Assembly: GCF_030408815.1 (NCBI RefSeq) | Contig: NZ_CP047355.1 | Coordinates: forward strand, 682,001-746,000 | Direction: 5' to 3' | Length of the DNA stretch: 64,000 nt | Source: Corynebacterium freiburgense | GTDB taxonomy: Bacteria > Actinomycetota > Actinomycetes > Mycobacteriales > Mycobacteriaceae | Notes under the pieces: model-generated | Seen by the model: only the letters and a program-made list of their open reading frames with translations | The model's database searches: none | Told to the model about the DNA's origin: nothing | Position numbers and translations under genes: made by a program | Shown: positions 9,734 through 60,525 of the stretch, in pieces | Layout: each line of letters opens with the position of its first letter | How positions within the stretch are numbered: the first letter of the stretch is position 1

Positions 9734-9780
9734 TGATACAAAATAGGAATGTTTTTTAAAAACATGCCCTTTTTGTACCA
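9734..9780. repeat. 47-nt hairpin, TGATACAAAA family, copy 1
   Basis: A nearly complete palindrome from TGATACAAAATAGGAATG to CATGCCCTTTTTGTACCA with an AT-rich centre TTTTTTAAAAA. Copy 2 lies 37 nt downstream in the same orientation, and copy 3 at 39520 is reversed. All three are exactly 47 nt. Confidence 0.85.
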
Positions 9781-9817
9781 GGGGTGGCGGCAAAACCCAA
9801 GGTCAAAAATCTTCGGT

Positions 9818-9864
9818 TGATACAAAATAGACAGGTTTTTTAAAAACATGCCCTTTTTGTACCA
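9818..9864. repeat. 47-nt hairpin, TGATACAAAA family, copy 2
   Basis: This copy shares its last 29 nt almost exactly with copy 1 (GTTTTTTAAAAACATGCC onward) and has the same ends TGATACAAAATAG and TTTTTGTACCA. Differences fall mainly in the left arm (GACAG instead of GGAAT), which weakens pairing. Confidence 0.85.
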
Positions 9865-10440
9865 GTTGTGCAGCAGCTAAACTAGGCGATTTCTGGATTT
9901 TGTGGGTAGCGGCATGCAATAGCCGTATTCCAACGCCTTACAGGGAAAAATTAAAATGCGCGCAATGTTATAAGGCCGCGAGGTTATGTAAACTCAGATT
10001 ACCTCTGCCAGGTGTCAGCGTCCTTCCCAGACTTTGCCCAGACCTTCCCTAAGCATTTCACGGCTATCTGCTTGGTGTGCGTTCCTTGGTGGCAGTGCAA
10101 AGGGGGACAAGTAAAAGCAAAAGGTCGCACCCCGGTTAATTTGGCAATATCTTTTAATATAAGCCCCTCGGTGCTTGCGGCTCAGTTTCAATAAAACCGC
10201 GGAGGGGTGATATTAACCAGTCGCTTTTTAGCCCCAAGTATTTGGCCCATTGAATTTCCGTTCGTTCATTGTGCCGCGGGCACTTACTGCACTTTCGCGC
10301 CGCATTCGCAAAGGATATTAAAAGAAAAAGCTCGAGTAAATACTTCTTTGGCACTATGTAGCTTGCGAGGGGGCGGACTATTTCATAGCTTATCGACGTC
10401 CCGTTCCCACATGTTGGCCGGTATGTTTAGTAAATCAGTG

Positions 10441-11650
10441 CTAGTGATTTGCTTTAAGATCGTGTGAGCGGACAAACAATAACCAAGTTGTACTTGCAGC
10501 AACGAGGATGACTGATGCGATATGCCAAGCGAGGGACAAATCACCGGTGGCAACGATACTACCTGCGATAATTGACGCCCCAGCTTTGGATAAGCCAGCG
10601 AATGCATTGCGTAGGAGGGTGAAGCTCGCGACTTGGTCCGCTGGTGGCGCTTGGTTGGTCAAAACTTGCATGGTCAGTACGTGGGCAGTTCCAAAGAGAG
10701 AGGCGAAAAAGATTAAGGTGATTGCCGTGTAGGGGGAGGTGATAAAAGCCAGCCCGAAAGAGCTGATTGCGGCAAGAGGGAGCGCGGTGTTGAGCGTGAT
10801 CGGCAGGGGAAGGCGGTCAGTTCCCAGAATGGCTCCAGCGAAGATACCAGCGGCCGATGTGGCGAGGGTTAAAACGGACACCAAGGAAGCACTATTTGCA
10901 TTCGCGGTTGATTGGAGGGAATCTGCAAGAGGGACAATGAGCGTGTTGAGATAAGGGAGAAAAGCACTGCTTGGCACGGAGAACACGAGTACGAGGGTCA
11001 TTAATCGAGTGAGATGCTTGGGACTTCCTTGGTGAGGGTTTGGTTTCGGTGATGTTGTTGTGGGCTTCAGATCATTTGAAGACCGGGATAACGAAAGTTT
11101 TGCAAAGACAAGCGAAAGTATGTAGAGGGCGGCAGAGAAAGTAAAACACCAGGTTATGCCCAATGAGTCGGTGACTAAGCCGGTAGTGCCAGCGCCAGCA
11201 AGGCCGCCGAAAATGCCAAGCGATGTGGCTCTCTGGAGGATCTTGGAGCCGTCGGAACTTGGAAAATGTATGCGAATGATACGTCCTGCGTAGCCTTTAT
11301 TAAATGCTTTGACAATACTCAAAGATGATTGGGAAATAACAAAGATGGTCAGGTAGATCGGGTGTGAAGGGCTAAGTATTTAAGACAATGGCACCCGCAA
11401 CCAAAAGAGAATTCGAAGTTGCGAGGCGTCGTTCAGCGCCCGGGGCGTCGGCAAGCGAACGGAACAACAAACTTACAATGACCCCGGGAAGATATGCGGT
11501 GGCGCCAATCACCCCAACCCACACCGGACTTTGTGTCGCCGCGAATACTGCGAGAACAATGCACAAGCTTTGCATTGTTTCCGCGAAATTTGAGGTGAGG
11601 TAGAACGCCTGGAATACTGTGGCTCCGTGAGGTGATTTACGGATGCGCAT
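10441..11650 (-). pseudogene. MFS transporter gene broken by a frameshift
   Basis: Two frames together make one major-facilitator protein of about 400 residues. The first (11650-11372) starts MRIRKSPHGATVFQAFYL, has ribosome binding site AAGGAG further upstream, covers the first two or three TM segments and stops after VAGAIVLNT. The second (from about 11379 to 10441) continues in another frame as ILSPSHPIYLTIFVISQSSL and carries the remaining TM segments to the end LLFVRSHDLKANH. The break falls in TTAAATACTTAG near 11373-11382 and looks like a one-base indel. Read as recent decay, or as a sequencing error. The substrate is unknown; the family resembles drug-efflux MFS. Confidence 0.75.
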
Positions 11651-12009
11651 TAGCGTTGTATCCCAATCCTCACAGAAAACTCCTTTTGCGAACTAGTGTT
11701 CAATTCAATGGGGGGTCTATCAAAGGAGGGTGGATGCGGAACCTCACTCATTAACTTACTAACTTGTGTAGCTGCGCATCGTGTCTGTGATATCAGGGAT
11801 TGTTGGCGAGTCTGCAACTCTATGCGGTATTGGAAAACGCCAAACTTGTTCAGACCTGAAAATCTGCAATGGACTTATTTCTTCCAAAGGCAAACTTTAA
11901 CAGCTGCAGTGCGTCATATTAATATGTAGATTGTATGTGCTAATATCAGGAGTTTAGCATCTAGAAAATGTTTGCTATATCCTTTAATCCAGAGCTTTTA
12001 ATGGTGTTC
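11651..12009. other. AT-rich intergenic stretch
   Basis: I see no coding sequence or clear repeat here. It separates the broken MFS gene from the array of small membrane protein genes. Confidence 0.4.
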
Positions 12010-12262
12010 TGAGAAAAATGGGATTGACCACATAAATAACGTTGGTAATGAAATCAATGAGAAGATAGTTGCTGCCTATAGGTCATAGGATTTTGGCCTG
12101 ATTGCAAAGAATACATTGAAAAACTACGCTAAAAAATGTTACTTAGTCAAGTAACTTCCATGTCCGCAATTTCCCAAATAATTCTTGCAGCGATATAGCT
12201 TAGGAATGTCAAAAACCAGCCGATTTTGCGTGCTGTAAAAACATGGGGAACCTCATTCTTAC
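12010..12262 (-). pseudogene. Decayed fourth copy of the type A small membrane protein
   Basis: From 12260 down to 12147 the frame reads VFTARKIGWFLTFLSYIAARIIWEI, clearly type A, then stops. Downstream, 12146-12010 still matches the second half of the copy at 14166-14462 at the nucleotide level (TTACCAACSTTATTTATGTG and flanks), but a deletion and stop codons break it. The start region has GAGG then GTT where copy 12586-12852 has an in-frame GTG, so the start codon is also lost. It is closest to the 14166 copy, which suggests a recent duplication. Confidence 0.7.
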
Positions 12263-12283
12263 ATTTAAAATCGCGGTTGTAAA

Positions 12284-12580
12284 TCAGTAGAATAAGGGCG
12301 CTAAAGGAGGGACTATGAAGAAAATCAAGAGTGGAGAATAGAAGGTTAGTATACCGGCGATAATCAGATCGTGGCTTTTTGATTTCACACTTAGCGTTAA
12401 AATAGTGGCGGAGATTGCTACTACACAAAAGATCAAAAACCACAGTGCTGTGTAGTTTTCGCCTGGAAGCCAGAGTGGATGCAAAGCCCATGCACTGGCA
12501 GGAACCAAAGAGAAGAGCGTGAGCCCCCAGCCTATTGGTCGAGCGTGGTGGATAAAAATTGCCTTGTTGTTTTGAATCAT
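12284..12580 (-). CDS. Type B small three-TM protein, copy 3
   Basis: A 98-residue protein of an unrecognised family, called type B here. It begins MIQNNKAIFIHHARPIGWGL, and the ARPIGWGLT motif starts exactly 12 residues after the Met, as in the other two copies. Three hydrophobic segments are seen (about 16-34, 44-62, 70-92) with the basic SVKSKSHDL loop before the third; the positive charges suggest N-inside, C-outside. It lies 5 nt after the stop of the type A partner, so the two are likely translated together. No catalytic or metal-binding motif is visible. The function is unknown. Confidence 0.6.
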   Translation of the reverse strand: MIQNNKAIFIHHARPIGWGLTLFSLVPASAWALHPLWLPGENYTALWFLIFCVVAISATILTLSVKSKSHDLIIAGILTFYSPLLIFFIVPPLAPLFY

Positions 12581-12585
12581 TAGTA

Positions 12586-12852
12586 TCACTTTGCGGAGAA
12601 ATACGGGGCAGCCCATCCAACAACAACAAGTAATGAAGTGGATGAGAATAATGCGGCGGCCCAAAGGTCGTAGCACTTAAATTTTATGGCAAGAAATACG
12701 ATTGCTAGAAAGCATATTAGAATTCCAACTATATTCACGTAATGGAGCCATGTGGGGCCATTTAGGTTTGACCAGTATAAAAAGGCCAAGATGTAACTTG
12801 GTATCGTTAAGCACCAACCAATTTTTCGTGGTGTAATAAACACATGAATCAC
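12586..12852 (-). CDS. Type A small three-TM protein, copy 3
   Basis: An 88-residue protein of an unrecognised family, type A. The motif TPRKIGWCLT is at the N-terminus, and AIKFKCYDLWAAALFSSTSL leads into the third hydrophobic segment. Type A and B proteins share the R-[KP]-[IV]-G-W-x-L-T start and the basic loop ending in DL, so they are probably ancient duplicates of each other. The frame starts at GTG 12852, directly abutting AAGGA; a second GTG three codons later is 9 nt from that site and may be the true start. The partner type B gene follows after 5 nt. Confidence 0.6.
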   Translation of the reverse strand: MIHVFITPRKIGWCLTIPSYILAFLYWSNLNGPTWLHYVNIVGILICFLAIVFLAIKFKCYDLWAAALFSSTSLLVVVGWAAPYFSAK

Positions 12853-13863
12853 TCCTTCGTATTATTATGAGTTTTATACTATATTAGTTCATATGCCCCC
12901 GAGATTTGGTTTTAGTACAGAGCGAGCGCCGATTCAAGGCAGCTTACGACGCTCACTTTTTATTTCCAGGGATATTCGCTGTGTCGCATGCACATACTCG
13001 TTACTTGTGTTTGTGTGCTTTAACAAATGGTAATCCTCCGTAGAATACTGGCCAGGGGAATTAATGATTTTGCGGGGCAGGAGTTCTTATATGCTGATTT
13101 TTTGCGATTGAATAACCTTCGAACATTTCCAAGTACCATTTTTGAGTTTGAATAACTATTCAACTTCTGATCATATTGAAATATATTTCAATTAAAAAAG
13201 TAAGCGTTAGATTAGAATTGTCACGTGATGTGGATTCAGGCTCACGTGACTCACTGTCTTAATGCGTCTGATCTGGTTCACGGTAGTTGTAAAGGGGATT
13301 TCTTTTCTATGATTCATCGCCAACAAGCTGGAGCGTGATCGTTGCGTTGACTTTATTAGAGTTTGTTGAAGCTGGTTGTCTTCTCGCAATGAATTTCGGA
13401 GTTTTTGGCCATTGATCATAGTATCAAGAAAACTGCTAATGTGATTCCGGATATTTCTGCTGTTATGTAGATTAGGAAGGTGAGGGACGTAACGACTTTA
13501 TGGGCAGTTGAAAAAAGGGGGTAAAATCTTGCCTATTTCTAGTCAGTAGTAAGGTTCTATCTTGCAATTAGTGTTATTCACAGACGCAATAATTCTGCAT
13601 GTTGTAACGTCTCTAGGTAACTATTTATGACCGATAGTAGCTTTAAATAATTTTTATAAAAAGATTAAAATCGAAGAATGTGAAGCTATACGGATTTATG
13701 CAACTATTTAGTTGTATAATATGAACCTTACAACAGACAAATTTTGAGGTTGACTATCGAGAATTCTTACGCTTACGTTGGTGGAAATCGCCTAATCATT
13801 AAGTTTTATTTTTTTGGGCACATTGTCCCCAAAAATCTGTAATGAACTTTTGTGACGGTTAAA
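12853..13863. other. AT-rich stretch between modules
   Basis: I see no intact gene. It contains the type A remnant at 13425-13512 and an inverted repeat TCACGTGA-[12 nt]-TCACGTGA near 13221-13250. The low GC content contrasts with the flanking housekeeping DNA. Confidence 0.4.
13425..13512 (-). pseudogene. Fragment of a type A small membrane protein
   Basis: On the minus strand this translates to AHKVVTSLTFLIYITAEISG, which aligns with ARKVGWSLTFLSYIAAGII of the 14166 copy; the bases TAAAGTCG and TTCCTAA match as well. The Gly-Trp of the motif is gone, a stop follows, and no start is visible. Confidence 0.55.
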
Positions 13864-14148
13864 TTAATTGAAATAGTTGGGCAGCACTATCATTATTAGT
13901 GGGGCATTAAAGGCTATAAGTCCTGCAAGAATTAGGTCGTGGCATTTGCTCTTGTTTGCTAGCAGGATGATGCAGAATGTAATGATTACAACACATAATA
14001 TCATTAACCACATTAATGTATAGACTGAGCGTGCTGGGCCAAAAAACTCAAAGCGCCAGGCTGCGGCTGGGAGAAATGCAATTGCCGTAAGTCCCCAACC
14101 TATTGGCCTGGCGTAACGTATAAGTGTTTTCGAATGTGTTAATTGCAT
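13864..14148 (-). CDS. Type B small three-TM protein, copy 2
   Basis: A 94-residue protein beginning MQLTHSKTLIRYARPIGWGL, with the same 12-residue spacing to ARPIGWGLT as copies 1 and 3; that spacing is why I choose ATG 14148 over a TTG at 14169. Three hydrophobic segments follow, with the basic loop NKSKCHDL before the last. It lies 17 nt after the type A stop in this module. A Phe-Gly-Pro-Ala-Arg stretch (FFGPARS) after the first segment is shared with copy 1 (LFGPASR). The function is unknown. Confidence 0.6.
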   Translation of the reverse strand: MQLTHSKTLIRYARPIGWGLTAIAFLPAAAWRFEFFGPARSVYTLMWLMILCVVIITFCIILLANKSKCHDLILAGLIAFNAPLIMIVLPNYFN

Positions 14149-14165
14149 TGTGTAGTTCACCACTT

Positions 14166-14462
14166 TCAATTATGTTCGGAAAAAAAGGGCACTGCCCACA
14201 TAAATAAGGTTGGTAACGAAATTAGTGATATCACGGCGGCGGCCCACAAATCATGGTATTTAGACTTTATTGCGAAGAAAATATTAAAAACTACGCTGAT
14301 AATAATCACGCCTAAAAATATATCTCCTAGCCATAAAATTTGCATGTCGGTGATCTCCCAAATAATTCCCGCAGCGATATAACTTAGGAACGTCAAGGAC
14401 CATCCGACTTTACGTGCTGTTACAGACTTGTGCAATAGTCTCACCTGATTTTTATTGGCCAA
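14166..14462 (-). CDS. Type A small three-TM protein, copy 2
   Basis: A 98-residue protein if the TTG at 14462 is used, or 92 residues from GTG 14444, which better matches the other copies. Motif TARKVGWSLTFLSYIAAGII at the start, then a second hydrophobic segment and AIKSKYHDLWAAAVISLISL. The C-terminal WAVPFFSEHN resembles WHAPFFSVS and WAAPYFSAK in copies 1 and 3, giving a family end motif W-x-x-P-[FY]-F-S. No good ribosome binding site is seen for either start. Its partner type B follows. Confidence 0.58.
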   Translation of the reverse strand: MANKNQVRLLHKSVTARKVGWSLTFLSYIAAGIIWEITDMQILWLGDIFLGVIIISVVFNIFFAIKSKYHDLWAAAVISLISLPTLFMWAVPFFSEHN

Positions 14463-15432
14463 TGGGAAGTGCTTTTAGATTAATTTTGTTGTCCGTCAGT
14501 ATGCTAATTTTATCAATGTATTGTGCTGATCGAAATTATTATTTGTTAAATGGTAGTAATTGTGGGTAATTTGTGGCTTAGTTGCAACCTTTAAGGTTGC
14601 CGCGCCCGCAGCTGGCCCTACGCAGCGTATGACGGCCGTTTTCATTGGAGGGGGCTGCAGCGGGTGCTTTGGCTTTGCCTGGTCTTACTTATTGGTTCCG
14701 CTTGGTATACTTCCGGATGGCTACAATATTAGTAGCAGTCGTGATAGCGAGGGGTTCCAAATATCGCCGCCTCGAGATATGTTCGAGCACGACGATCTTT
14801 CTCCGACGGATATTCGCCACGAAGGCTTCGCAATTTATTCACGAATTCTTCATCGCAGGTACATATATCTTTACCCAGATTTATACCCTGTAGTGAGAAG
14901 TTTTTTGATCTTCATGAATTTTCTCCTTAAAAAGGACGATTTCTTTAGGTGAAGATGGCTTAGATTGGAGGTAATATAACTCCGCTATCCAGGTAAGCAG
15001 TAGTTTTGTTTCGTGTCTAGTGTTGCTGTGGAATCAATCTTCAGGGGTGTTTATTGCTTTATTTTTAGCAATATGTAGGGCGGATGTGTTTCATAGTCGG
15101 GTGGAATGGTGTTTCCTGTATGGCTATATCGCACACTATTTCGAACTTTTTATTTTTTCGAAGATACTTTCACTGAAATATAAAGTGATTCAGAGTGTCA
15201 GGTTTATAATGCTGCAGAAAGTGTTAATAATCTGAATCGCCTTTTTGTGCTGCGGGAAAGGTGGACTCTGGGTGGTTGGTGGATAAACAATTGCGGCTGC
15301 CATCGGGCACTGAAGTAAAGTTTGAACTCAAAGTCAACCGATTATTATATGTCGAACATATCGCCGCAATTGTGTAGCTTGACAGAGGGTCCCATTTTGG
15401 CGCAAAAGGGTGTTGGTATTTCCTGGGTGTAT
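14463..15432. other. Gene-poor AT-rich stretch
   Basis: Frames on the plus strand at 14559-14952 and 15020-15235 have no ribosome binding site, no recognisable motif and odd composition, so I do not call them genes. I find no A/B homology here. It may hold promoters for the module to the left. Confidence 0.4.
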
Positions 15433-15479
15433 TAGCGGACGCCACGCGCTAGGGGGTAGCGGACGCCACGCGCTAGGGG
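15433..15479. repeat. Tandem direct repeat, two 23-nt units
   Basis: TAGCGGACGCCACGCGCTAG followed by GGG occurs at 15433-15455 and 15457-15479, one base apart. Each unit carries the small inverted repeat TAGCG / CGCTA. The second unit overlaps the stop codon of the type B gene at 15473, so the repeat has set or extended that protein's end. Confidence 0.85.
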
Positions 15480-15772
15480 AGCAGCGGCCTGATAATGTCA
15501 CCGCCGAATCCGAGAATTATTGTGGAGTAAAACGCAAGTATCCCGGCAAACACTAGGTCGTGGCATTTGGATACCACGCTTAGCCGTAAAATAGCGGCGG
15601 TGATAATGATTATCCCGTAAATCAAGGCCCACATGATGGTGGTGGTTTCTCGGGATGCGGGCCCAAATAGTTGGTTGAGCCAAGCAAATGCCAAAAGGTA
15701 TGCCAGGGCGGTGAGTCCCCAACCAAGTGTTCGGGCGTAGCGGATAATAAACGAGGGGTTAGCTATAGGCAT
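15473..15772 (-). CDS. Type B small three-TM protein, copy 1
   Basis: A 99-residue protein starting MPIANPSFIIRYARTLGWGL; the family motif reads ARTLGWGLT here. Three hydrophobic segments at about 17-34, 45-66 and 74-92, with the basic loop VVSKCHDL before the third. It is 5 nt downstream of its type A partner, the same gap as in module 3. The stop codon lies within a 23-nt tandem repeat. The function is unknown; no Cys pair or charged residue inside a membrane segment points to transport or catalysis. Confidence 0.62.
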   Translation of the reverse strand: MPIANPSFIIRYARTLGWGLTALAYLLAFAWLNQLFGPASRETTTIMWALIYGIIIITAAILRLSVVSKCHDLVFAGILAFYSTIILGFGGDIIRPLLP

Positions 15773-15777
15773 TCTGA

Positions 15778-16050
15778 TCAACTCACTGAGAAAAACGGTG
15801 CGTGCCACCAGAAAATGGTGAATAGTGATGTAAGTGAAAATAGTGCTCCGGCCCAAAGGTCATAATATTTAAACTTGATCGCAAATATTATATTGACCAC
15901 TACGGATAGCAGAATTATCGCCACATAGACAGCATGGGTCCATTCGTAGCCTTCAGTGTTCCACCAGAAAAATCCTGGCAAAATATAGCTTAATGCAGTT
16001 AAACCCCAGCCGATTTTACGTGGCGTCAATAACAGAGCCGTGGATGACAT
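15778..16050 (-). CDS. Type A small three-TM protein, copy 1
   Basis: A 90-residue protein starting MSSTALLLTPRKIGWGLTAL. AAAGGAGCG lies 5 nt before the ATG, the best ribosome binding site of the array. Hydrophobic segments at about 13-32, 39-58 and 66-84; the loop AIKFKYYDLWAGALFSLTSL precedes and enters the third. C-terminal WHAPFFSVS fits the family end motif. It is the first gene of the array on the minus strand. A TATAAT on the minus strand at 16207-16202 could be its promoter, with a 150-nt leader. Confidence 0.65.
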   Translation of the reverse strand: MSSTALLLTPRKIGWGLTALSYILPGFFWWNTEGYEWTHAVYVAIILLSVVVNIIFAIKFKYYDLWAGALFSLTSLFTIFWWHAPFFSVS

Positions 16051-16357
16051 AAAAGCGCTCCTTTCTGCAATTGCAATGCCTGCGCAAAAGTCTTTAGTTT
16101 TTAGGGGTAAAACGCTCAAGGTGTATATGGGCTGTAGTAAAGATCAGCGCTCATGCATTACCTCGTTAAACGCCAATGGTTCTCTTCCGGTAGAAAATAT
16201 AATTATAGCAAGCTGCGGTTGTCACGCTTAGATGTAATTTTGCCGGGAGGCCGAAATATGTAGGCTGCGGCAGCTTTCCGCGGCGTCGATAAGCGCGGGT
16301 GCGTTTTCTGTTAGCGTGGTGTTAGCAGCCTGCAGGACGGACCGCCCGAGGGTAACT

Positions 16358-17218
16358 ATGAACAATAAGACGGATCTTTCCTTAGATACATTAGAGGGGC
16401 GTCGGTGTTCGAAATGGGATGCGGCTGGTCAGCCGTCGTTGCACTCGATTAGCGTTGTTATTCCTTGTTTTAATGATGCAGCTTTACTTCGGCGCTGCCT
16501 TAAATCATTGGCGGCGCAGCACACACCTCCGGACGAAGTCACTGTTGTGGATAATGCTTCTACTGATAACACCGTAGAGGTTGCCATAGCTGCAGGTGCG
16601 CGCGTAGTCAGCGAGGAGCGCCGCGGCATTACTTGGGCGACCCGAGCTGGTTTCGATGCGGCTTCTTGCGAGATTCTTGCTCGCATTGATGCGGATGTGG
16701 TTGCCCCTTCTGATTATATTTCTAAGCTTCGTGCCGCCTGGGCTGCTGCGGATCTTTCTGCTGGGCGCCGTGTTATTGGCGTTACTGGGGTCGCACGGTT
16801 TGAGGTGCCTGGGTGGTTGGGGGATATAGCTAGCTCTATATATTTGGGCGCTTATCGGCGCAGCGTTGGCTTAGCGTTAGGGCATTACCCACTGTTTGGG
16901 ACCAATTATTCGGTGCGTGCTTCATGGTGGCAGGAGATTCGAGATGAGGTTGATTCTTCGGATACTGAATCGCATGAAGATATGCAGATTTCCTTCGAGG
17001 TGAGGTCTGATGAAACGGTATGGTTTCAACCCGATCTGACTCTTGATATGGATCCTCGGGCACTGTATGGAACCAGGCAAATGCTCCGGCGTTTTCGTAG
17101 AGGAATGCATACTATTCTGCGTGCTTGGCGCAGGCACCCTCCACATAGGCGATTGGCGGCACGTGGTTTGCTCGGTTACGCCAACGCATTTCCTATCCGT
17201 GTGTTTCGCTGGAGGTAA
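16358..17218 (+). CDS. Family 2 glycosyltransferase, probable carotenoid glycosyltransferase
   Basis: A 286-residue GT-A fold enzyme. The N-terminal half is typical of GT2: ISVVIPCFNDAALLRRCLKS, then VTVVDNASTDNTVEVA and the metal/nucleotide-binding ARIDADVVAP (DxD). Late motif SHEDMQISFEV supplies the catalytic-type acidic pair. There is no membrane segment. GAGGG lies 7 nt before ATG 16358; the frame is open to 16316. Because crtYe, crtYf and crtEb follow with a 4-nt gap, I infer that it glycosylates a C50 carotenoid, as the CrtX-type GT2 does for decaprenoxanthin in C. glutamicum. This rests on context. Confidence 0.72.
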   Translation: MNNKTDLSLDTLEGRRCSKWDAAGQPSLHSISVVIPCFNDAALLRRCLKSLAAQHTPPDEVTVVDNASTDNTVEVAIAAGARVVSEERRGITWATRAGFDAASCEILARIDADVVAPSDYISKLRAAWAAADLSAGRRVIGVTGVARFEVPGWLGDIASSIYLGAYRRSVGLALGHYPLFGTNYSVRASWWQEIRDEVDSSDTESHEDMQISFEVRSDETVWFQPDLTLDMDPRALYGTRQMLRRFRRGMHTILRAWRRHPPHRRLAARGLLGYANAFPIRVFRWR

Positions 17219-17222
17219 GCAC

Positions 17223-17554
17223 ATGGCCTTTATATATCTAAGTATTTTGCTGGTGGCTCTGGGGTGCATGGTGCTTTGCGACTTGCGCTGGGGACTCACT
17301 TTTTCCAAGACTTCCGCCGCGCTTGTTGTATCAGTCTGATTATGGTCGGCGCATTTCTGGTGTGGGATGCTTTGGGAATTGCCACGGGATCCTTCTATCG
17401 TGGGAATTCGCCTTATATGACTGGCATTGAATTGGCGCCAGAGTTGCCTCTGGAGGAGCCGATCTTCCTGTTTTTCCTTACCTATCTGACCATGAACTTT
17501 ACGTCTAGCGCACGTTTGCTTTTCGACGCCCCCGTCAGGCAGGTGAGCACATGA
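17223..17554 (+). pseudogene. crtYe: C50 carotenoid cyclase subunit CrtYe, split by a frameshift
   Basis: The two parts match the small lycopene-cyclase-domain subunit CrtYe. Part 1 (17223-17339) gives MAFIYLSILLVALGCMVLCD and runs to ALVVSV before TGA. Part 2, in another frame up to 17554, gives LIMVGAFLVWDALGIATGSF, SPYMTGIELAPELPLEEPIF and the rest, including the conserved PxE(E) motif. An ATG at 17342 begins 2 nt after the TGA, so part 2 could be made by re-initiation as a 70-residue chain. Otherwise it is a disrupted gene or a sequencing error. It overlaps crtYf by ATGA. Confidence 0.75.
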
Positions 17555-17838
17555 CGTACCTGCTTATCAGTACCCCTTTCCTTTGTATAGCTCTAGCGAT
17601 TGCCTGGTGGCGACGCCACACAAGCCCTCGACAGTGGATGGTTACAGGTGTAGTTATGGCTGTCCTATTGGTGCTTACCGCTATCTTTGACAACCTTATG
17701 ATTCTGGCGGAGCTTGTTGGTTACGGTGAGGAGCAACACCTGGGTCTTCAATTGGGGTTAGTGCCGGTAGAAGACTTCTTTTATGTCATTTTCGCCGCTC
17801 TAGTTATCCCCGCATTATGGCTAGGCGGAAAGCGATGA
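17551..17838 (+). CDS. crtYf: C50 carotenoid cyclase subunit CrtYf
   Basis: A 95-residue integral membrane protein with three hydrophobic segments, matching the second subunit of the heterodimeric C50 carotenoid epsilon-cyclase. The conserved region FDNLMILAELVGYGEEQHLG followed by GLVPVEDFFYVI carries the family's PxED motif. With CrtYe it would close the rings of flavuxanthin-type C50 carotenoids. It starts at the ATG overlapping the crtYe stop and its end overlaps crtEb by ATGA, so the three are translationally coupled. Confidence 0.85.
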   Translation: MTYLLISTPFLCIALAIAWWRRHTSPRQWMVTGVVMAVLLVLTAIFDNLMILAELVGYGEEQHLGLQLGLVPVEDFFYVIFAALVIPALWLGGKR

Positions 17839-18698
17839 GTATCTTTCGTAGTATTCTTGCCGCTTCACGTCCTATTAGTTGGGTGAACACTGCCTTTTCT
17901 TTTGGCGTGGCTTATTTGTTTGTTGGCAACCGGATCGACTGGTTGTTTTGGGTTGGCGTGGTATTTTTCCTAATCCCGTACAACATTGCCATGTATGGCA
18001 TCAATGATGTCTTCGACTATGAGTCTGATATTCGTAATCCCCGCAAAGGTGGTGTTGAAGGGGCAGTACTACCAAAGTCAATGCATGCGCCCCTGTTATG
18101 GGCTTCCGTGCTAACGACGCTGCCTTTTATTGCCGTAATGAGTATTACGGGCACTGCACAGTCGGTGTTTTGGCTGTTCATATCTATTGCTGCCGTGGTG
18201 GCGTACTCTGCTCCAAAGCTACGTTTTAAGGAGCGCCCCGTCCTTGATTCCGTAACGTCTTCCGCTCACTTTGTCACACCGGCTATCATTGGTGCCACAA
18301 TTCGGGAAGGGGAATTGCCGGTACCTGGTTATTTTTGGGTGGCCGTCGTCGCATTTTTCCTTTGGGGCATGGCCAGCCATGCCCTGGGAGCGGTACAGGA
18401 TGTAAAGGCTGATCGTGAGGGTGGTCTTTCGTCGATCGTCACAGCCTTTGGAGCCCGCACTATAACGCGATTGTCCGCTGTAGCGTATCTTCTTACTGCG
18501 CTACTACTATTTTTCTTGCCTTCACCTGGTTGGATTGTTGGGGTTGCGGGGCTTGGGTATGTGGCTAATGCGCTGCGCTTCTGGAATATTACTGATTGCA
18601 CATGCGAAGAAGTCAATCGTGCCTGGCGGGTATTTCTCTGGCTGAATTACCTGGTCGGAGCGGTGGTAACAATGAGTCTTCTTTATGTTTTTCTCTAA
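17835..18698 (+). CDS. crtEb: Lycopene elongase CrtEb (UbiA prenyltransferase)
   Basis: A 287-residue polytopic prenyltransferase of the UbiA superfamily. The first Asp-rich motif is NDVFDYESD (about residues 56-64), the second lies in DVKADREGG (about 190-198); both bind Mg and prenyl diphosphate. Eight or nine hydrophobic segments are seen. In C. glutamicum CrtEb adds two C5 units to lycopene to give C50 flavuxanthin, which CrtYe/Yf then cyclise. Start ATG 17835 overlaps the crtYf stop. The phytoene synthase and desaturase genes crtB and crtI are not in this window. Confidence 0.85.
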   Translation: MSIFRSILAASRPISWVNTAFSFGVAYLFVGNRIDWLFWVGVVFFLIPYNIAMYGINDVFDYESDIRNPRKGGVEGAVLPKSMHAPLLWASVLTTLPFIAVMSITGTAQSVFWLFISIAAVVAYSAPKLRFKERPVLDSVTSSAHFVTPAIIGATIREGELPVPGYFWVAVVAFFLWGMASHALGAVQDVKADREGGLSSIVTAFGARTITRLSAVAYLLTALLLFFLPSPGWIVGVAGLGYVANALRFWNITDCTCEEVNRAWRVFLWLNYLVGAVVTMSLLYVFL

Positions 18699-39519: not shown

Positions 39520-39566
39520 TGATACAAAAAGGGCAAGTTTTTAAAAAACATTGCCATTTTGTATCA
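39520..39566. repeat. 47-nt hairpin, TGATACAAAA family, copy 3
   Basis: Runs from TGATACAAAAAGGGCAAG to CATTGCCATTTTGTATCA. It is the reverse orientation of copies 1 and 2 at 9.7-9.9 kb and again exactly 47 nt. The stem is nearly perfect through the AT-rich centre. Confidence 0.85.
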
Positions 39567-59989: not shown

Positions 59990-60310
59990 GATGTGTTTCT
60001 GGAGTGGGCTGGGGTGTGGAAGATCGTGGGAAGCTCGGGGGAGTCGTCTGAGAAATGCCTGGAATAGGGAAGAAGCGCTAGAAGCAGGCAGATTTGTGTT
60101 GTGGGCTCCTGGTTTGGGGGTGTGAGCTGGGGAAATGCGGTGGCGGGTTGTGGGTGATGTGAAATCTGCCTTTGTTGGGTGGTGGGGTGTGTTAGATCTG
60201 CCTGATTTTCAGGTTGGTGGGGCTGAAAACCAGGGATTCCCAGGGGTTTACGTTGGCTTTACGAGCCTTTGAGCCGCTTTCCCTGCAGTTTGATAGGCTG
60301 ACCCTATTGA

Positions 60311-60525
60311 ACTGGTGATGTTTTTATGCCAACTGTCGCAGATTCCATAAAATCGCCCGAAAAAATGGAATTTGTGACAGCAACCAACATTGCGCACAAT
60401 CGTTGACCTGGGGTTTGTCGCAGATTCCATAAAAACAGCGAAAAAAATGGAATCTGTGACAGGTTCCCTACCTATCGTGTCACAAATTCCATAAAATCCG
60501 CCGAAAAAAATGGAATCTGTGACAA
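60311..60525. repeat. Triple-hairpin repeat element, right copy
   Basis: Hairpins at 60334-60379, 60416-60461 and 60478-60524, with the same arms, spacers (36 and 16 nt) and flank as the left copy at 5-220. The two elements are about 90 percent identical by eye, with differences mainly in loops. Stems are kept: substitutions in arms stay wobble-paired. Confidence 0.87.

Follow-up and report, generated by a model that had tools for sequence, protein, structure and literature searches.

The stretch of Corynebacterium freiburgense DNA analyzed here (64,000 nucleotides, hereafter the window) lies at positions 682001-746000 of the main contig of a 2.96 Mb genome and carries, on its minus strand from position 16050 down to 12284, a tandem array of genes for small membrane proteins. 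The array consists of six open reading frames (ORFs) in three intact pairs, in the order A3-B3, A2-B2, and A1-B1, as an earlier note on this DNA had described. The distance from the A stop to the B start is 5 nt in pair 3, 17 nt in pair 2, and 5 nt in pair 1, which bears out the note's claim of an exact 5-nt gap in two copies; the pairs themselves are separated by approximately 1.0 kb. Between pairs 3 and 2 sits the relic of a gene encoding a secreted phospholipase A2 (PLA2). A comparison is provided by G190, a related Corynebacterium metagenome-assembled genome, in which contig C25 bears the main array and contig C83 a second pair. The features of the window array are as follows.

15778..16050, minus strand: A3, small membrane protein of 90 aa; ATG start with AAAGGAG upstream
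15473..15772, minus strand: B3, small membrane protein of 99 aa; starts 5 nt past A3
14887..15145, minus strand: DNA 68% similar to the upstream region and 5' part of the intact G190 PLA2 gene (blastn against G190 locus L038, 11460-11725)
14735..14884, minus strand: PLA2 relic, the last ~50 codons of a secreted PLA2 (tblastn)
14166..14444, minus strand: A2, small membrane protein; start uncertain, either GTG at 14444 or TTG at 14435
13864..14148, minus strand: B2, small membrane protein of 94 aa; starts 17 nt past A2
12586..12852, minus strand: A1, small membrane protein; start at GTG 12852 or, likelier, at GTG 12843 behind AAGGAG
12284..12580, minus strand: B1, small membrane protein of 98 aa; starts 5 nt past A1
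about 12004..12245, minus strand: A4 relic, a broken fourth A copy (stops, frame change) downstream of B1

The DNA of the A4 relic is 71% identical to the A2 region. A tandem 24-bp repeat lies at the end of B3 (15433-15487). A scan for promoters and terminators returned no more sites than were found in shuffled sequences.

A and B are homologous to each other (HHalign probability 98.0%, E 2e-13), in agreement with the earlier note. The A proteins share the motifs R..GW, KxKxxDL in the inner loop, and WxxP[FY]FS, and the B proteins share R..GWGLT and an inner loop that resembles that of A and ends in DL. The motif spellings given in the note hold overall, but A2 reads TARKVGW instead of TPRKIGW, and B3 reads ARTLGWGLT instead of RPIGWGLT. 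Likewise, the three hydrophobic segments that it ascribed to all six proteins were recovered in 6/6 at a Kyte-Doolittle mean of at least 1.0 over 17 residues, but in only 2/6 (A2 and B3) at a stricter mean of 1.5; the weakest of the three is the first. Modeling of A3 with AlphaFold2 from 8 sequences gave three long helices (10-30, 36-60, and 64-81) with a mean predicted local distance difference test (pLDDT) score of 82.4, and A and B are probably three-helix membrane proteins. Searches of Pfam, NCBIfam, PADLOC, PHROGs, and PDB gave no convincing match to A or B and none that reached a curated cut-off, in line with the note's failure to place them in any known family; for the six window proteins, PHROGs returned nothing better than E 0.008. 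STING_TM (E 0.62), DUF6358 (E 0.042), EccD (E 0.047), and AZOBR_p60025 (E 0.008) were considered as possible families and rejected, all being far under the cut-off. Among 5.8 billion proteins, single-sequence searches with A3 and B3 each found one relative beyond the window's own protein. A profile of 23 sequences from A, B, and a set of direct A/B homologs designated S (A versus S, HHalign 98.7%, E 4.7e-16) found 13 proteins, of which the 4 that name their source are Corynebacterium entries labeled "hypothetical protein".

The PLA2 relic was matched by three intact relatives (tblastn, E 1e-9 to 1e-10) and is 68% identical to the G190 PLA2 (E 2.6e-17). Its remaining ~50 C-terminal codons begin past the catalytic dyad, the Ca-loop and the His-Asp stretch being absent, and ~457 bp of the G190 PLA2 gene, which hold the dyad, have no window counterpart between the matches at 14735-14884 and 14887-15145. 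The window copy is dead. The intact PLA2 relatives are stand-alone ORFs of ~200 aa that combine a hydrophobic stretch at the N terminus with a secreted PLA2 domain (sPLA2 fold), and they display the hallmarks of secreted PLA2s, namely the His-Asp dyad, the Cys-Gly of the Ca-loop, and conserved cysteines. When 22 open PLA2 ORFs were aligned, C131, D146, C149, H152, D153, C155, and C165 were invariant, and G132, G137, and G139 were kept in at least 90%. The relatives matched sPLA2 profiles from PDB with E values from 3.8e-10, and all four PLA2s tested matched Pfam PF00068 (E 2e-6 to 6e-6) at 27-28.5 bits, below its gathering score of 32.1. PF09056 was rejected as the family of these enzymes, as the same four PLA2s matched PF00068 and not PF09056; matches to PF09056 occur in 22/242 genomes of the genus. 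The genome that contains the window has an intact secreted PLA2 gene of its own ~24 kb before the window (C1:657012-657626; loci L092 and L136), and behind it lie two tandem ORFs with three predicted transmembrane (TM) segments, of a sequence type unlike A/B (L092).

In G190, five A and five B ORFs on C25 stand behind an intact PLA2 gene (L038 11697-12320) and share its strand; six of them form three adjacent A-B pairs, and the remaining two A and two B are unpaired. Synteny extends to the DNA around this array, with 18.7-28 kb of the window matching L038 11.4-0.1 kb, and orthologs of window pairs 3 and 2 occur on C25 in a changed pair order. The GC content is 36-45% across 12-16 kb of the window, compared to ~50% in the surroundings, and the earlier note took this as a sign of transfer; a recent horizontal transfer is not needed, because G190 has these gene types in a syntenic array. 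On C83, a single A-B pair is preceded by a PLA2 remnant reduced to its final 15 residues, with 80% identity to the G190 enzyme (E 2.4e-4) and E values of 0.03-0.08 with three distant queries. For the window genes with clear G190 orthologs, we calculated the ratio of nonsynonymous to synonymous substitution rates (dN/dS) by the Nei-Gojobori method. The amino acid identity and dN/dS were 83% and 0.13 for A3, 72% and 0.13 for B3, 82% and 0.06 for A2, and 83% and 0.04 for B2, at high dS values (0.84-2.7). By these ratios, all four genes are under purifying selection.

Searching 242 genomes of the genus, we obtained A3 matches at E <= 0.01 in 17 genomes and, with the intact G190 PLA2 as query, 47 places in 38 genomes. 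Four places were dropped (the window relic, the second piece of the gene in G211, and the weak hits L121, with a tblastn E of 3.8, and L122, with no tblastn hit), leaving 43 PLA2 loci, intact and broken, in the adjacency table. A locus was scored as positive if an ORF of 60-200 aa with at least three TM segments (17-residue hydropathy window, Kyte-Doolittle mean >= 1.5) lay on the same strand within 400 bp downstream. Such an ORF was found downstream of the PLA2 in 32/43 loci and upstream in 0/43, compared with 11/152 background ORFs, and the Fisher test for adjacency gave p values of 3e-18 and 3e-14, uncorrected for kinship. The background ORFs were drawn from loci partly fetched for the A/B gene family, and their 11 positives include 3 PLA2 genes and 2 more cases (L044 and L045) that count an A/B relative behind an unrelated gene. 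When the PLA2s were linked at 60% identity, 19/22 clusters contained at least one adjacency case. The neighbors in other corynebacteria, which the earlier note had proposed to survey, place small membrane ORFs behind the PLA2 gene at about three quarters of the loci, the one-sided order expected of a toxin gene with its immunity gene directly beside it. Members of set S behave in the same way: in G027, G032, and G036, a single S gene begins ~16-45 bp past an intact PLA2, and in G148 a broken S gene stands behind a broken PLA2. Two or three small membrane ORFs follow the PLA2 in tandem at several loci (L092, L093, L101, L108, and L110), and the A/B/S profile reaches one further PLA2-linked type, in G006 (E 1.3e-7).

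Genes of the A/B/S type also occur where the PLA2 is dead or absent. They are present in 19/242 genomes, 10 of which have no PLA2 match (G025, G052, G069, G073, G097, G133, G167, G172, G185, and G237); one of these ten, G052, has a weak PF09056-type match. In G054 and G132, the PLA2 and the A/B/S-type gene occupy separate places in the genome. G185 and G032 are 96.5% identical in the flanks on both sides of the locus, and G185 lacks the PLA2 and retains the membrane gene. At two places, the window and G190 C83, intact membrane genes stand beside a dead PLA2.

Outside the genus, 11 plasmid records in PLSDB hold a related PLA2, all of them from Bacillota. In two of the six plasmid regions that were looked at, from Enterococcus casseliflavus and Anaerococcus prevotii, a 3-TM ORF overlaps the end of the PLA2 gene. 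On the A. prevotii plasmid pAPRE01 (L142), the PLA2 and 3-TM genes have class III lanthipeptide genes on one side and a radical SAM/ABC transporter set on the other, a bacteriocin-like context. Secreted PLA2 genes adjoin a thioredoxin-family gene on three Bacillota plasmid records (L140, L141, and L143), and on the two Brochothrix plasmids two PLA2 genes flank it. The PLA2 profile A1 matched 2/251 family-level genomes, both in the genus, and 5/396 phylum-level genomes including the window's own (4/237 genera); in Actinomycetota outside the genus, the PLA2 is rare within this sample. Among phages, one record has a PLA2, a streptococcal prophage.

Directional adjacency, tandem amplification, and retention beside a dead or absent PLA2 are the behavior expected of immunity genes. 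From these genomic patterns, we consider it likely that A and B, as membrane proteins, confer immunity to sPLA2-fold enzymes that one Corynebacterium releases against another, and we predict that they protect the cells that carry them. Immunity was one of three guesses in the earlier note and is now the best supported of them, although the PLA2 relic that suggests its target had been overlooked. The PLA2 would leave the producer via its N-terminal hydrophobic segment, which has the appearance of a signal peptide, cross the wall of a sensitive neighbor, and hydrolyze the phospholipid of its membrane. The 3-TM protein would sit in the cytoplasmic membrane with its N terminus inside and its C terminus outside and would block the PLA2 at the outer face, where the poorly conserved outer loop may provide specificity. 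The window array would then be a store of immunity genes retained after its own toxin died and, by analogy, works like an orphan or poly-immunity locus. The limited strength of the 3-TM assignment and of the putative PLA2 relic on C83 leaves our estimate for an immunity role unchanged.

Several observations weigh against this interpretation. The automatic adjacency test failed at 11/43 PLA2 loci: inspection by eye likewise revealed no such ORF at five of them (L100, L105, L111, L113, and L116), and the other six (L078, L084, L086, L088, L109, and L115) reflect an array further off (as in G190 itself), a script miss, a truncated 2-TM ORF, or the end of a contig. At the threshold of the adjacency script, no more than two segments are recognized in four of the six window A/B proteins, which would themselves fail it, and the assignment of the window proteins to the 3-TM class depends on the laxer threshold and one model, that of A3. 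The 3-TM types that accompany most other PLA2s (M, K, U, N, T, Q, E, and X) give HHalign probabilities of 0.2-68% with A, and a single superfamily uniting A/B/S with these types, as judged from such profiles, is not proven. The variability of the outer face is partial. Conservation is high in the inner loop (0.84 in A, 0.81 in B) and low in the outer loop (0.43 and 0.60), loop 1 being the least conserved part of A, and the C terminus is variable in B (0.37) and fairly conserved in A (0.73). The dS values are close to saturation in several of the window-G190 comparisons. Finally, in four of the six plasmid regions (L139, L140, L143, and L144, from Vagococcus, E. faecalis, and two Brochothrix), the PLA2 is not directly followed by a 3-TM ORF.

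The alternative that survives best is that the 3-TM protein is a partner required by the PLA2, for instance a membrane chaperone, a secretion or disulfide helper, or an anchor. Such a role would account for the tight order of PLA2 and then 3-TM gene and would suit a cysteine-rich enzyme, and the thioredoxin-family genes next to PLA2 on the three plasmid records indicate that likely helpers do occur. A helper, however, would be expected to decay with its client, and the copies beside the dead PLA2 in the window and on C83 are intact; the lack of a PLA2 match in 10/19 genomes with an A/B/S-type gene and the ten array copies for one PLA2 in G190 are also at odds with it. Because the genes occur in tandem copies, stay intact where the PLA2 is dead or absent, and are under purifying selection, we favor immunity and regard a helper role as unlikely. 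Slightly less probable still is a lipid or envelope role of the 3-TM proteins themselves (lysolipid handling or envelope stress), through which they would aid cells under PLA2 attack indirectly: charged residues that are conserved on the side presumed to face inward (KxKxxDL and R..GW) look functional and orphan copies do exist, but the divergence, the changes in copy number, and the patchy presence (19/242 genomes) are unlike a housekeeping membrane protein. It is very improbable that the small membrane proteins act as toxins or holin-like pores in their own right, co-delivered with a lytic PLA2. Small multi-TM proteins do adjoin a membrane-active enzyme here, but purifying selection maintains them in tandem alongside a dead PLA2, and the six window proteins have no PHROGs match better than E 0.008, no search having been aimed at an antitoxin partner or nearby phage genes.

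If A and B are immunity proteins, they may act jointly or be two paralogous single-chain immunity proteins. Over seven adjacent pairs, the A and B distances are strongly correlated (Mantel r 0.92; 8/5040 permutations as high), which indicates that the pairs moved mostly as units; linkage alone can produce such a correlation. The earlier note had argued for selection on the pair and had named a dN/dS near 1 and frequent loss of one partner as signs to the contrary. The first sign is absent, as the four genes compared with G190 gave 0.04-0.13, and the distance correlation points the same way. The second was found: one partner is often missing, both on G190 C25 and in most other species with an A/B relative, which have a single gene only. 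On balance, selection on the pair has partial support. The heteromeric membrane complex that the note suggested is compatible with the distance correlation, but the unpaired G190 copies count against an obligate pair. Because one partner is so frequently missing, an obligate heteromeric complex is not shown, and an A+B heteromer is unproven.

Several further features of the window adjoin the array or lie beyond it. On one side, the frame of a transporter of the major facilitator superfamily type, judged by eye, is split into two ORFs (10441-11322 and 11372-11650) and is apparently broken. On the other side, 16316-18698 holds a glycosyltransferase, lycopene-cyclase-like ORFs, and a UbiA-type prenyltransferase, named by sequence reading and likely carotenoid genes; these candidates are not covered by the blastn alignment of the window with the G190 contig. 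A 218-bp direct repeat with internal subrepeats of ~50 bp occurs at 1-218 and 60307-60524 (92% identical), with related copies in G190 (L038 7226-7415), and a dispersed repeat of 47-65 bp has two copies near 9.8 kb (9734-9882) and one inverted copy near 39.5 kb (39520-39566).

The immunity interpretation turns an anonymous array of membrane genes into a testable toxin-immunity system that is part of a genus-wide module, and it offers a candidate function for the small membrane ORFs behind PLA2 genes. If true, it would explain how the secretor of a membrane-digesting enzyme survives its own enzyme. Corynebacterium is common on skin and mucosa, and bacterial sPLA2s are often regarded as host-directed or nutritional; they may instead, if the interpretation holds, serve competition between bacteria. 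A broader proposal, to which we give an even chance, is that corynebacteria and some Bacillota plasmids share an undescribed class of enzymatic bacteriocins, in which Sec-secreted, stand-alone sPLA2-fold proteins digest the membranes of Gram-positive competitors. Each would be guarded by three-TM immunity proteins from a rapidly evolving superfamily, which spreads through tandem arrays of orphan genes, made up of two-chain A+B units in the present lineage.

In the open literature searched, which covers few subscription papers, we found no description of a membrane immunity protein paired with a secreted PLA2 from corynebacteria, nor of an sPLA2 with a coupled membrane immunity gene or of a Sec-type secreted PLA2 with three-TM immunity proteins. 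The nearest described systems differ in several respects. In Zhang et al. (2012, PMC3482391), Tox-PLA2 is a domain of large polymorphic toxins, and poly-immunity loci are tandem paralogous immunity genes in one orientation and of variable number. The present system resembles these in its PLA2-fold toxin and in its tandem paralogous genes of one orientation and changing number (three pairs and one relic in the window, five A and five B on C25, and one pair on C83, all of them genes whose immunity role we infer). Unlike Tox-PLA2 as portrayed there, the PLA2 here is a stand-alone protein of ~200 aa with its own N-terminal hydrophobic segment, and whereas Imm-CdiI and Imm17 are given two TM helices in that text, A and B probably have three. 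The poly-immunity loci described there are never interrupted by toxin genes, whereas here a PLA2 relic separates pair 3 from pair 2. They have small inter-gene distances; in the window, the distances are 5-17 nt within pairs and ~1.0 kb between them. Because the toxin relic interrupts the array and the pairs are ~1 kb apart, we do not file it as a poly-immunity locus.

The enzymes are like the sPLA2 family (PF00068/PF09056; PDB) in their His-Asp dyad, cysteine pattern, and Ca-loop, and unlike it in scoring below the PF00068 gathering threshold and in having a coupled membrane gene. TslA and TilA are a known example of a phospholipase A that is secreted and antibacterial and has its own dedicated immunity protein; PMC10730906 presents them as a type VII secretion system (T7SS) substrate and a lipoprotein, respectively, whereas the present enzymes have an sPLA2 fold and an N-terminal export segment of their own and are combined with integral membrane proteins. 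The closest working model for A and B, by how it works, is ExiC/ExiD of Staphylococcus aureus, two membrane proteins that, according to PMC12744356, are jointly needed against the extracellular membrane toxin EsxX and occur as orphans in other strains. EsxX is a depolarizing toxin secreted by the T7SS and not a lipase, whereas the presumed toxin here is a PLA2; ExiC and ExiD have six predicted TM helices each and belong to DUF5079/DUF5080, and A and B are likened to them in how they would work. Toxin-immunity pairs and poly-immunity are already known as concepts, while the combination of a secreted PLA2 with three-TM immunity proteins appears new.

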